Of a stretch of DNA of 64,000 nucleotides, positions 9,625 to 16,870 are shown piece by piece. Source of the DNA: Streptomyces sp. V3I7 (GTDB lineage Bacteria; Actinomycetota; Actinomycetes; Streptomycetales; Streptomycetaceae); the NCBI RefSeq assembly GCF_030817495.1, contig NZ_JAUSZK010000001.1, forward strand, positions 5,721,001-5,785,000. Reading direction: 5' to 3'. How positions within the stretch are numbered: the first letter of the stretch is position 1; the number at the start of each line of letters is the position of its first letter. Both the position numbers and the translations under genes were made by a program. The notes below the pieces were generated by a model, which searched no databases, was not told the origin of the DNA, and saw only the letters and a program-made list of their open reading frames with translations.

Positions 9625-10413
9625 CTACGCCCCCGTACTCACCGTCGGGCGCGAGGCGTGGGCGCGGTTCGTGGGGCTGGCTTCCGGGGCGGGGGCGTAG
9701 GAGGCGGACGTCCGCCACAACCACCCCACATCCCGCCCGAACGACCACACCAGCGACCCCAGTGCCACCAGCACCACCACCACGTTGGCCGTCTGCGGCA
9801 GCAGTTCCGCGCCGGACAGGAGGAGGGCGATGCCTTGGAGGGCGGCGACCGTCTTGCGGGCGAAGGACGGGGGGAGCGGGGCGTTGAGCCACGGGGCGAC
9901 GCGGGCCGCGGCGACGAACGCGTAGCGCATCGCGCCGATCAGCAGGACCCACGGGCCCTGCTGCATGGCGACGTACACGCTCAGCACCAGGATCAGGAAC
10001 GCGTCGACCTCCATGTCGAAGCGGGCGCCGAGCGCGGTCGAGGTGTTGGTGCGGCGGGCGACCTTGCCGTCGACGCCGTCGAGGATGAGGGCCACCGCCG
10101 TGAGCCCGACCAGCAGGGTGACCGGCGGTGAGCTCTCGAAGGAGTCGGCTACCAGGGCCGTCACGCCGCCGACCAGGGTGGCCCGGCCGAGGGTGACGCG
10201 GTTGGCGGGGCCGAAGGAGCGCAGTTCGGAGCGGTGCAGGGCGCGGGTGAGGACCGCCCAGGTGGCGAACGCGAAGGTGAGTCCGGTGAGCCAGCCCGCG
10301 GTGCCCATGCCGATCGCCGTGCCGAGCAGGGCCAGCAGCAGGATCTGCACGCCCGCTCCCACCGCAGGCTCCTGGAGGACCGGCCTCGTGTCGTAAGTGT
10401 TGTTCAGGGCCAC
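9625..10413 (-). CDS. CDP-alcohol phosphatidyltransferase
   Basis: A 262-residue integral membrane enzyme. The CDP-alcohol phosphotransferase signature DG-x2-AR-x8-G-x3-D-x3-D is complete (DGVDGKVARR... through FDMEVD, about residues 113-138). Several hydrophobic helices surround it. These enzymes swap CMP of a CDP-lipid or CDP-alcohol for a second alcohol, making phospholipids or phosphodiesters. The GTG at 10413 is preferred over further-upstream codons because GGAGGG lies 8 bases before it. It is transcribed away from the dehydrogenase that starts the pterin-type cluster, and may supply a lipid carrier or head group for it; that role is inference. Confidence 0.88.
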   Translation of the reverse strand: MALNNTYDTRPVLQEPAVGAGVQILLLALLGTAIGMGTAGWLTGLTFAFATWAVLTRALHRSELRSFGPANRVTLGRATLVGGVTALVADSFESSPPVTLLVGLTAVALILDGVDGKVARRTNTSTALGARFDMEVDAFLILVLSVYVAMQQGPWVLLIGAMRYAFVAAARVAPWLNAPLPPSFARKTVAALQGIALLLSGAELLPQTANVVVVLVALGSLVWSFGRDVGWLWRTSASYAPAPEASPTNRAHASRPTVSTGA

Positions 10414-10520
10414 CGAACACCCTCCGGCCGAGTGACAGAGTCGATCAACGCCGCGTACTCTGCGCGGCCTGTGCACATCTCGGTACGTGACCAACTTCCC
10501 GATTGTTCAGGAGGATGTCG

Positions 10521-11495
10521 ATGAACCGCTCCGCACGGGCGTTCTGGCTCCGCTCCCCGGGCCACGGCGAGCTGCGTGACGTCACCGTTCCGGAACCCGG
10601 CGCGGACGAGGTGCTGGTGCGCGCGCTGTACTCCGGGGTGAGCCGGGGGACGGAGACGCTCGTCTTTCGCGGCGGCGTTCCAGAGAGTCAACAGGCCGTC
10701 ATGCGGGCGCCGTTCCAGGAGGGCGACTTCCCGGGGCCCGTGAAATACGGGTACCTCAGCGTAGGGATCGTCGAGCAAGGGCCCGAGGAGCTGGTCGGGC
10801 GGACGGTCTTCTGCCTGTATCCGCACCAGAGCCGTTACGCCGTACCGGTGAGCGCCGTGACCCCCGTGCCCGACCACGTCCCCGCCGAACGGGCCGTCCT
10901 CGCCGGGACCGTCGAGACCGCCGTGAACGCCCTGTGGGACGCGGCCCCCCTCGTCGGCGACCGCATCGCGGTGGTCGGCGGTGGCATGGTCGGCTGCTCG
11001 GTGGCCGCGCTGCTCGCCCGCTTCCCCGGCGTACGGCTCCAACTCGTGGATGCCGACCCGGAACGCGCCAAGACCGCCGAGGCGCTCGGCATCGACTTCG
11101 CTGCCCCCGAGGACGCCCTCGGCGACCGCGACCTGGTCGTCCACGCCAGCGCCACCGAACAGGGCCTCGCCCGCTCCCTCGAACTCCTCGCCCCCGAGGG
11201 CACCGTCCTCGAACTGAGCTGGTACGGCGACCGGCGCGTCAGCCTCCCGCTCGGCGAGGCCTTCCACTCCCGCCGCCTCACCGTCCGCAGCAGCCAGGTC
11301 GGCACCGTCTCCCCGGCCCGCCGCGCGAGCCGCGGTTACGCCGACCGGCTGGCCCTCGCCCTCGACCTGCTCGCCGACCCGGCGCTGGACGCGCTGATCA
11401 CGGGTGAGTGCGGCTTCGAGGAGCTCCCGGAGGTGATGCCCCGGCTCGCCTCGGGCGAGATCCCGGCCCTCTGCCACCGGGTCAAGTACGCCTGA
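10521..11495 (+). CDS. Zinc-type alcohol dehydrogenase-like oxidoreductase
   Basis: A 324-residue medium-chain dehydrogenase/reductase. A GroES-like N-terminal fold (VTVPEPGADEVLVRALYSGVSRGTE) is followed by a Rossmann domain with IAVVGGGMVGCSVAALLA near residue 155. The usual cysteine and histidine catalytic zinc ligands are not obvious (GVSRGTETLVF replaces the GICGTD loop), so zinc chemistry is doubtful. The start at ATG 10521 is set by AGGAGG at 10509-10514; the ATG at 10515 is too close. It is the first gene of the plus-strand cluster with the PTPS homologue, glycosyltransferase and methyltransferase. The substrate is unknown. Confidence 0.87.
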   Translation: MNRSARAFWLRSPGHGELRDVTVPEPGADEVLVRALYSGVSRGTETLVFRGGVPESQQAVMRAPFQEGDFPGPVKYGYLSVGIVEQGPEELVGRTVFCLYPHQSRYAVPVSAVTPVPDHVPAERAVLAGTVETAVNALWDAAPLVGDRIAVVGGGMVGCSVAALLARFPGVRLQLVDADPERAKTAEALGIDFAAPEDALGDRDLVVHASATEQGLARSLELLAPEGTVLELSWYGDRRVSLPLGEAFHSRRLTVRSSQVGTVSPARRASRGYADRLALALDLLADPALDALITGECGFEELPEVMPRLASGEIPALCHRVKYA

Positions 11496-11612
11496 CCTGA
11501 GAGAAAAGGGTGAGAGAGGGCTGAACACGGGGAAGCGAAGAGCCGTACTACTCGGCATCCCCCGGCAGGGAAGAGCGGGGGACCAGACGCGCCGCACCTG
11601 GAGGGTCGTCCG

Positions 11613-15527: not shown

Positions 15528-16171
15528 GCGGACATTCCCGTGGAGAGCAGATGACGGCGGTCGTCCGCGGTGAAATCGGCGGACTCATAACCAGGGCGGA
15601 CCATTTCTGGATGCGTGTGCAGCAGAATGGAGGTCTCGATTTCCCCGGCGTGCATGTCGGTGAGGAGCGAGGTCGACACTCCCGCCCGCTCCCGCGCCGT
15701 CTCCCAGTCCTCCGGGGCCGGGAACAGCGCCATCCGCTCCCCGCGCGCGGACGCCTCCTGGACCACGTTGCCCAGGACGTAGTTGCCGCCGTGGCCGTTG
15801 ACCACCACCAGCGTCTCGACGCCGGACCGGCGCAGCGACGCCGCGATGTCCGCCACCACCGCGTGCAGGGTCACGGAGGAGATACTGACCGTTCCCGGCC
15901 AGGCCGCGTGCTCGTGCGAGCACGAGACGGTCACCGGAGGGAGGAGGTGCACGGGATACGCGGCCGCGATCTCGCGGGCGACGGCGCAGGCGACCAGGGT
16001 GTCGGTCGCCAGCGGAAGGAAGGGGCCGTGCTGTTCGAAGCTCCCGACGGGAAGAACGGCGACCTGCGCGGGCAGCTCCGCCCCGCGCGCCCTGACGTCC
16101 TCCGTGGTGTCCGTCGGCAACAGATGGCGTACCGGAACGTATTGAGGCTCACCCGCGTGCGAACCACTCAT
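15359..16171 (-). CDS. Creatininase-family amidohydrolase (candidate formamide hydrolase)
   Basis: A 270-residue metal-dependent amidohydrolase of the creatininase/ArfB family. Metal-binding motifs are intact: LPVGSFEQHGP (Glu and His, near residue 40), ATDT (Asp), NGHGGN (His) and HAGEIETS (Glu). ArfB-type members remove formate from FAPy in archaeal riboflavin and F420 synthesis. It starts only 39 bp from the divergent FAPy-type cyclohydrolase gene, which suggests it deformylates that product; this is inference. The ATG at 16171 has AAAGG upstream. Its 3' end overlaps the membrane protein gene by 169 bp on the opposite strand. Confidence 0.9.
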   Translation of the reverse strand: MSGSHAGEPQYVPVRHLLPTDTTEDVRARGAELPAQVAVLPVGSFEQHGPFLPLATDTLVACAVAREIAAAYPVHLLPPVTVSCSHEHAAWPGTVSISSVTLHAVVADIAASLRRSGVETLVVVNGHGGNYVLGNVVQEASARGERMALFPAPEDWETARERAGVSTSLLTDMHAGEIETSILLHTHPEMVRPGYESADFTADDRRHLLSTGMSAYTASGVIGRPSLGSADKGEQLLASLVDSFAAYFTLLASAEHPAGGSVDASSVGVR

Positions 16172-16210
16172 GTTATTCACGGCCTTTCGTCTCTGCTTAG
16201 GAACCAGATC

Positions 16211-16870
16211 ATGACAGAAAACCTTGGCGTAGTCGGCGAGCATTCCCCACGGCGGTCGGGCGTGGAACGCGTCGTGAATGCTCCGTTGCCCACCGTTCAC
16301 GGGAAGTTCCAGGCGATCGGCTTCATGGACCACGACCGGGGCGAGGAGCAAGTGGCCTTGGTCCACGGGGACATCGCCACCGACCGCGTACTCACCCGGC
16401 TGCACTCGGAATGCCTGACCGGAGACGCGTTCGGCTCGCGGCACTGCGAGTGCGGCGACCAGCTCGACGCGGCGCTGCGTTCGGTCGTCGCCGAAGGCAG
16501 CGGCGTCGTCCTGTACTTGAGAGGGCACGAGGGCCGCGGCATCGGGCTGCTGGCGAAGCTGCGCGCGATGGCTCTCCAGGCGGACGGGCTGGACACGGTG
16601 GAGGCGAACCTCGCCCTCGGTCTGCCGGTCGACGCCCGTGACTACGGCGTCGCCGCCGCGATGCTGCACGACCTCGGCGTCCGTTCCGTCCGGCTGATGT
16701 CCAACAACCCGCGCAAACGCGAGGCGTTGGTACGGCACGGCATCCAGGTCGCCGAGCAGGTCCCGCTGCTGATCGAGCCGTGCGAGAGCAACATCACCTA
16801 TCTGCGGACCAAGCGGGAGCGGCTCGACCACGACCTGCCCCATCTGGACGCGGTCGCGCACTTGTCCTGA
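16211..16870 (+). CDS. ribA: GTP cyclohydrolase II homologue, predicted FAPy-forming (Met120 type)
   Basis: A 219-residue GTP cyclohydrolase II domain without a DHBP synthase partner. Zinc ligands Cys68, Cys79 and Cys81 are present in ECLTGDAFGSRHCEC, as are the GTP-contacting LRGHEGRGIGL and TNNP-like SNNPRKREAL motifs. At position 120 (LRAMALQ) it has Met where the E. coli enzyme has Tyr105 (RAYALQ). From memory, SCO6655 of S. coelicolor carries Met120 and stops at the formylated pyrimidine FAPy; changing it to Tyr restored normal product. This copy is therefore likely a secondary-metabolism enzyme, not the housekeeping riboflavin one. AGGA lies 8 bases before the ATG. Confidence 0.93.
   Translation: MTENLGVVGEHSPRRSGVERVVNAPLPTVHGKFQAIGFMDHDRGEEQVALVHGDIATDRVLTRLHSECLTGDAFGSRHCECGDQLDAALRSVVAEGSGVVLYLRGHEGRGIGLLAKLRAMALQADGLDTVEANLALGLPVDARDYGVAAAMLHDLGVRSVRLMSNNPRKREALVRHGIQVAEQVPLLIEPCESNITYLRTKRERLDHDLPHLDAVAHLS

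Follow-up and report, generated by a model that had tools for sequence, protein, structure and literature searches.

A candidate GTP-derived aminopyrimidine pathway with unusual tailoring genes in Streptomyces sp. V3I7

The archaeal entry into riboflavin synthesis, ArfA-ArfB-ArfC, leads through FAPy, a deformylation by a creatininase-fold enzyme and a reduction of the RibD_C type. The same order of FAPy, deformylation and reduction is proposed here for a group of eight genes in Streptomyces sp. V3I7, located at positions 9625-16870 of a stretch of 64,000 nucleotides (the window, C1:5721001-5785000, in a genome of 6.55 Mb and two contigs). Eight intact open reading frames, A to H, fill this part of the window and encode a CDP-alcohol phosphatidyltransferase (A), an MDR-family dehydrogenase (B), a PTPS-fold protein (C), a GT4 glycosyltransferase (D), a methyltransferase (E), a UPF0104-type membrane protein (F), a creatininase-family hydrolase (G) and a GTP cyclohydrolase II (H). 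All eight families had been named in an earlier interpretation of the window (the sequence-only reading); B and E are the weaker ones by sequence, and their folds are backed by predicted models. The locus may represent a dedicated pathway from GTP that runs beside riboflavin synthesis, the whole chain being given a probability of roughly 0.45.

The first enzyme of the archaeal route is of a family unrelated to that of H, G falls far under the ArfB cut-off, and the later riboflavin enzymes are absent from the cluster: a Pfam scan of the eight genes detected no butanone-phosphate synthase, lumazine synthase or deaminase. This absence also separates the cluster from the RibBA/RibD riboflavin pathway, with which it has GTP cyclohydrolase II and, in relatives, RibD_C in common. 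Elsewhere in the genome, RibBA and a lumazine-binding protein are encoded side by side, and a reductase-deaminase of the RibD type is present as well, so that the description of the cluster as distinct from riboflavin holds. A riboflavin cluster was accordingly rejected, as butanone-phosphate synthase, deaminase and lumazine synthase do not lie beside H. In the RibD-type protein of this genome (L158:6103-7473) the domains are reversed, with the reductase ahead of the deaminase.

Cyanopterin and tetrahydromethanopterin are glycosylated pterins whose synthesis starts from enzymes of the GTP cyclohydrolase I type. A pterin or pyrimidine core bearing a sugar and a methyl group, as envisaged for the present cluster, would be the same kind of product; we know of no lipid-linking enzyme for either of the two.

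SCO6655 and SCO6650 of Streptomyces coelicolor have reportedly been studied in vitro, with no role assigned. A 2006 study is said to have identified SCO6655 as a GTP cyclohydrolase II forming FAPy in vitro, and the methionine at its switch position is reported as the cause of the stop at this compound. SCO6655 is of the same family as H and has the same Met120, and its numbering fits SCO6650 as the PTPS protein; in the literature found, SCO6655 appears without its pathway, partner enzymes or product. C matches the structure of SCO6650 (PDB 3D7J; phmmer E 4e-78) and falls in the already named subfamily PTPS-IV of COG0720, which the sequence-only reading had missed. The PTPS-IV signature is FGPAQ and its neighbours are PF00925 and PF01872 (PMC5445326); C resembles it in motif, in its length of 132 residues and in neighbourhood, and FGPAQ is invariant in 14/14 aligned relatives. 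The available passages of that paper give PTPS-IV no function and do not mention GT4, MDR, methyltransferase, CDP-alcohol, UPF0104 or creatininase partners, and those of a further paper name it as a class with no function attached (PMC5041015). Already in print are the FAPy activity, the SCO6650 structure and the occurrence of PTPS-IV beside PF00925 and PF01872. In the open-licence literature, a scope that leaves most subscription journals outside, no description of the pathway, its product, the creatininase link or a role of the creatininase was found.

The gene set and the switch residue across genomes

PTPS-IV served as the query and is hence present in every locus; gene counts rest on tblastn, the caller of open reading frames being crude (over-long and antisense frames). 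In a protein search with C, the best 120 of 8000 matches are from Streptomyces wherever they are named. Within the class, 44 of the 296 genomes contain the subfamily; of the 28 same-genus genomes listed, 16 do, that of the window among them. Forty regions were fetched, around 40 of 45 match rows, and all eight genes are kept in each of the 15 same-genus relatives among them. This conservation is more than chance, because in the same 15 loci the upstream neighbour (7237-8757) is found in none and the downstream gene (16912-18138) in 10. Co-conservation was the check that the sequence-only reading had named, and the outcome speaks for it.

Among species-representative genomes, at least 579 stretches encode a PTPS-IV relative, of which the best 80 were read. 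The core is found again in Actinomycetota, Pseudomonadota, Gemmatimonadota and one Marinimicrobia metagenome-assembled genome; many of the non-actinobacterial loci come from metagenome-assembled genomes. Beside the window there are 118 distinct loci, 81 of which are at least 15 kb long and outside a set of 24 Arthrobacter-type loci. Within these 81, B, C and D are present in all, A in 74, F in 71, E in 70, H in 61 and G in 45; RibD_C, whose occurrence in the clusters of relatives had previously been missed, is found in 44 of them and in 48 of the full 118. A, G and H are mobile in gene order, and B, C and D are mostly adjacent (exceptions include L061, L112, L115 and L151). In the Arthrobacter-type loci (L071, L072, L074-L094, L096), B, C and, in most cases, D are the only members of the set. 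A Tyr-type cyclohydrolase (L173) is encoded in the genome of L074 and on the tree groups with cluster cyclohydrolases found elsewhere, and the pathway may be split in such genomes. Extra genes of non-actinobacterial loci, such as those for ABC transporters and FkbM methyltransferases, follow no clear pattern.

H exceeds the cut-off of the RibA model TIGR00505 (222 bits versus 205.85). Its switch residue is Met120, where RibBA proteins have tyrosine, and by this residue the assignment as a FAPy-type enzyme appears right. The comparison of switch residue and CREATININASE covered 119 distinct loci, window included, 68 of which hold a cyclohydrolase. The switch residue is other than tyrosine in 45 (29 Met, 9 His, 3 Leu, 3 Gln and 1 Ile), and 44 of these loci contain a creatininase of the G clade; in the lone exception, L104, the end of the contig falls inside F. 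The 23 Tyr loci present the reverse picture, with no G-clade creatininase, RibD_C in every one and a divergent creatininase in two (L146, L149), whereas RibD_C accompanies 11 of the 45 non-Tyr enzymes. Among 22 other cyclohydrolases on the tree, which served as a control, 21 have tyrosine; the sole other residue, histidine, is that of L126, where the creatininase is present and the cyclohydrolase lies outside the fetched DNA. The tree comprises 90 cyclohydrolases, with the switch column left out, and the nearest rows to H are from named Streptomyces and same-genus genomes.

This distribution is the main new support, with its limits, for G as a putative FAPy deformylase. It lends indirect backing to the earlier suggestion of a formamide hydrolase, which in Actinomycetota goes with loss of the switch tyrosine. 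Since the same partner genes occur in Tyr and non-Tyr clusters, the two entries are expected to converge on a single intermediate, for which APy (2,5-diamino-6-ribosylamino-4(3H)-pyrimidinone 5'-phosphate) is the natural candidate.

Proposed pathway and alternative readings

The first two steps, for which the comparison made here and known enzymology argue, are probable. H, without the switch tyrosine, would open GTP and halt at FAPy, and G, a creatininase-fold metal hydrolase, would take off the formyl group to yield APy, which the Tyr-type cyclohydrolases of relatives would reach in one step, without this creatininase. Where RibD_C is present, APy may then be reduced to a ribityl compound, a step supported in relatives only; in the genome of the window the housekeeping RibD may carry out the reduction, or the step may be skipped. 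Of the four cluster RibD_C proteins tested, two have their highest score with TIGR01508, the model of the archaeal APy reductase (L058 at 128 bits and L067 at 113 bits, cut-off 186), and two with ribD_Cterm (L049 and L114). The best PDB match of the L058 protein is 5xux, and 6p8c, named an APy reductase, is among the best PDB matches of one cluster RibD_C. The genome of the window contains five RibD_C matches elsewhere; the nearest of them to the proteins of L058 and L067 is a fusion of reductase and deaminase that presumably serves riboflavin synthesis.

As the cluster has no deaminase, the 2-amino group would stay, which suits the pterin-type pocket of PTPS-IV. The families and their co-conservation suggest how the remaining steps might proceed. 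C would bind the aminopyrimidine and, with B, convert it to a bicyclic or otherwise altered head group; D would add a sugar and E a methyl group; A would link an alcohol of the product to phospholipid from CDP-diacylglycerol, and F would carry the product across the membrane. A, D and F come from families that commonly take part in making membrane glycolipids. Taken together, these steps would describe a widespread bacterial pathway to a membrane-anchored, glycosylated and methylated aminopyrimidine or pterin derived from GTP, joined by a phosphodiester to phospholipid in the outer leaflet, with two forms of entry (a cyclohydrolase acting in one step, or a FAPy-forming one paired with a creatininase-fold deformylase) and, in Streptomyces, late production of the compound during aerial growth and sporulation. 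This joint picture is speculative and, as a whole, rather unlikely.

Several observations weigh against the proposed chain. On the tree, the non-Tyr set amounts to one change on one weakly supported branch (Shimodaira-Hasegawa-like approximate likelihood ratio test, SH-aLRT, 69), and the independent-pairs test of the coupling between switch residue and creatininase has one pair only; the coupling would thus reflect about one evolutionary event followed by long retention, and many independent events were rejected. L132 has the creatininase, and both full-length cyclohydrolases of its genome, which shows three partial matches besides, have tyrosine. A second creatininase lineage adjoins RibD_C in L113, L114, L146, L149 and L172 and is accompanied by Tyr enzymes in L146, L149 and L172, so that in those loci FAPy is not the sole reason for a creatininase, and these proteins may do something else. 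G reaches 37.9 bits with the archaeal deformylase (ArfB) model NF033501 (cut-off 180) and 138.2 bits with the MftE model TIGR03964 (cut-off 172). RibD_C was not found in the cluster of the window, and A, E or F were not found in some loci. The lipid linkage, suggested by the gene families, is putative.

The points concerning G could mean that it acts on a later amide or lactam and that its link with non-Tyr cyclohydrolases is an accident of a single lineage. The one evolutionary event, L132, the second lineage with its Tyr enzymes and the low ArfB score would all agree with this; however, a deformylase is expected somewhere, since SCO6655 reportedly makes FAPy and the same partner genes also occur with Tyr enzymes, and the creatininase is retained in 44/45 non-Tyr loci, the 45th (L104) stopping at a contig end. 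This reading is unlikely. Somewhat harder still to favour is a split GTP cyclohydrolase I, in which H and G make APy, C performs the Amadori rearrangement and closes the ring to a dihydropterin monophosphate, and RibD_C, with its dihydrofolate-reductase-like fold, reduces the pterin, giving a glycosylated and methylated tetrahydropterin. C shares the T-fold of GTP cyclohydrolase I and keeps the PTPS fold, with Thr-Glu and a C-terminal Glu near-invariant and the PTPS zinc set missing; Rv2671 (4xrb), reported to have dihydrofolate reductase activity, is among the PDB matches of one cluster RibD_C. Yet the two best-scored RibD_C models indicate an APy reductase, and the rearrangement would be prevented once the ribose had been reduced; A and F are left unexplained.

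The locus could, in addition, consist of two unrelated sets that happen to adjoin, namely a spare cyclohydrolase and hydrolase feeding riboflavin, whose enzymes in this genome could take up APy, and an envelope glycolipid set, to which GT4, flippase-like and CDP-alcohol proteins would belong by family. This is highly improbable in view of the cyclohydrolase in 61/81 long PTPS-IV loci, drawn from more than one cyclohydrolase lineage: the Tyr rows that come from clusters require 8 changes on the tree, of which at least 3 fall on starred branches. Among better known systems, a preQ0 (7-deazapurine) cluster was rejected, as GTP cyclohydrolase I, QueC and QueE are missing among the eight genes, and so was mycofactocin, G being under the MftE cut-off and no radical SAM gene being among the eight. 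Anti-phage defence was rejected too, its only trace being weak E1-E2 matches of B at about 1e-4 to 1e-3.

The individual genes and their meaning

Curated Pfam cut-offs are exceeded by CDP-OH_P_transf (A), PTPS (C), Glycos_transf_1 (D), LPG_synthase_TM (F), Creatininase (G) and GTP_cyclohydro2 (H). The features of the locus are listed in Table 1.

Table 1. Features of the eight-gene locus, in positions of the window
Feature	Position	Strand	Basis
A: CDP-alcohol phosphatidyltransferase, 262 aa	9625..10413	-	PF01066 56.9 bits, cut-off 22
A/B divergent intergenic stretch, conserved in Streptomyces relatives	10414..10520	.	16-locus alignment, window included
B: MDR-family dehydrogenase/reductase without invariant Cys, 324 aa	10521..11495	+	PF00107 weak, model fold, conservation
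C: PTPS-IV, SCO6650 orthologue, TTG start, 132 aa	11613..12011	+	PF01242 83.3 bits; FGPAQ
D: GT4 glycosyltransferase, 405 aa	12008..13225	+	PF00534 95.4 bits; E-x7-E
E: class I SAM methyltransferase, 344 aa as read	13222..14256	+	PF13649 just below cut-off; model and fold matches
F: UPF0104/LPG_synthase_TM flippase-like membrane protein, 424 aa	14253..15527	+	PF03706 104.7 bits
G: creatininase-family hydrolase, proposed FAPy deformylase, 270 aa	15359..16171	-	PF02633 214.9 bits, cut-off 31.3; distribution; clade
G/H divergent interval, 39 bases	16172..16210	.	
H: FAPy-type GTP cyclohydrolase II, 219 aa	16211..16870	+	PF00925 221.6 bits, cut-off 23.3
Met120 codon of H, switch residue (canonical Tyr)	16568..16570	+	

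The catalytic motif of CDP-alcohol phosphatidyltransferases, DGxxAR-x8-GxxxDxxxD, is complete in the translation of A, which is therefore not degenerate, and the label divergent given to it falls away; no equivalog model came near its cut-off for A. B reaches 24.1 bits with ADH_zinc_N (PF00107; cut-off 31.8) and 46.5 bits with the BchC model (cut-off 291), and MDR-type dehydrogenases are among the PDB hits listed for its AlphaFold model (pLDDT 88.9). The position of the zinc-binding Cys is a known motif site of MDR proteins; relatives of B have no invariant Cys and carry SRGTE at this place. A zinc-dependent MDR alcohol dehydrogenase was rejected for B on the score and on the lack of the Cys, the fold still being MDR.

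In C, the HGH of canonical PTPS is changed to HGA and the Cys is absent in 14/14 aligned relatives, and the His preceding RNLD is replaced by Tyr (Met in one), so that the protein had been aptly described as a PTPS without catalytic residues. A canonical PTPS or QueD was rejected, since C has neither the HGH zinc motif nor the Cys nucleophile; the Thr-Glu and C-terminal Glu positions are near-invariant in the aligned relatives. D contains E-x7-E, a motif of GT4 enzymes. E scores 26.5 bits with Methyltransf_25 (PF13649; cut-off 27). Class I methyltransferases were found as fold matches of its model (pLDDT 83.4) at modest TM-scores, and a sequence search of the PDB gave no match; the fold relatives are too varied for naming a substrate. 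Residues 1-65 are of low confidence, and the true start may lie further downstream.

Overlapping stop and start codons join C to D (GTGA), D to E (GTGA) and E to F (ATGA). The claim that the plus-strand genes are linked in this way stands for the PTPS, GT4, methyltransferase and UPF0104 genes and fails for B and C, which are 117 bases apart, and for H, which is set apart from the run and separated by 39 bases from the divergent G. This divergent arrangement of G (-) and H (+) is found in 26 of the 27 Streptomyces loci examined, window included. F runs antisense to the 3' end of G over 169 bases (15359-15527), and the overlap measures 121-232 bases in 16 of 17 Streptomyces loci without RibD_C, window included; the values are unreliable for L037 (an artefact) and where RibD_C lies between F and G. 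Conservation of the A/B interval (10414-10520) is strong across 16 Streptomyces loci and includes stretches such as TGACAGAG...GATC...GCCGC-TAC; the interval is likely a shared regulatory site.

Downstream of the cluster (19396-27950) lies a pentose-phosphate run of 6-phosphogluconate dehydrogenase type, phosphoglucose isomerase, glucose-6-phosphate dehydrogenase, transaldolase and transketolase genes. The minus strand upstream (3268-8802) encodes an acyl-CoA dehydrogenase, a ferredoxin/FAD oxidoreductase, an AurF-type N-oxygenase and a flavin monooxygenase. A further gene is common to L113, L118, L127, L131, L141, L146, L149 and L152; the two copies tested (L131, L146) match the PF00884 sulfatase/phosphatase family and adjoin A in their loci.

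Expression data in S. coelicolor, as far as the available parts of the sources go, fit a role late in growth. Among genes of unknown function SCO6652 is listed as one of the most differential, with log2 values of 0.8, 4.3 and 4.1 at 24, 48 and 72 h for second versus first mycelium, stages that the paper names substrate, aerial and spores (PMC3610822). Its number falls between those of SCO6650 (C) and SCO6655 (H), which should make it one of D, E and F and most probably E. SCO6655 is among the genes anticorrelated with predicted flux, most of which rise in stationary phase (PMC2853524).

As a whole, the sequence-only reading is partly supported, and the locus reads as a GTP-derived aminopyrimidine pathway with unusual tailoring genes. 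For SCO6655 and SCO6650 the comparison supplies partner genes, a probable second step and a simple assay of the enzyme, and it shows that the gene set extends beyond Streptomyces. The lipid step, if true, would define a new class of membrane molecule; otherwise, the locus would still represent an undescribed GTP-derived pathway.

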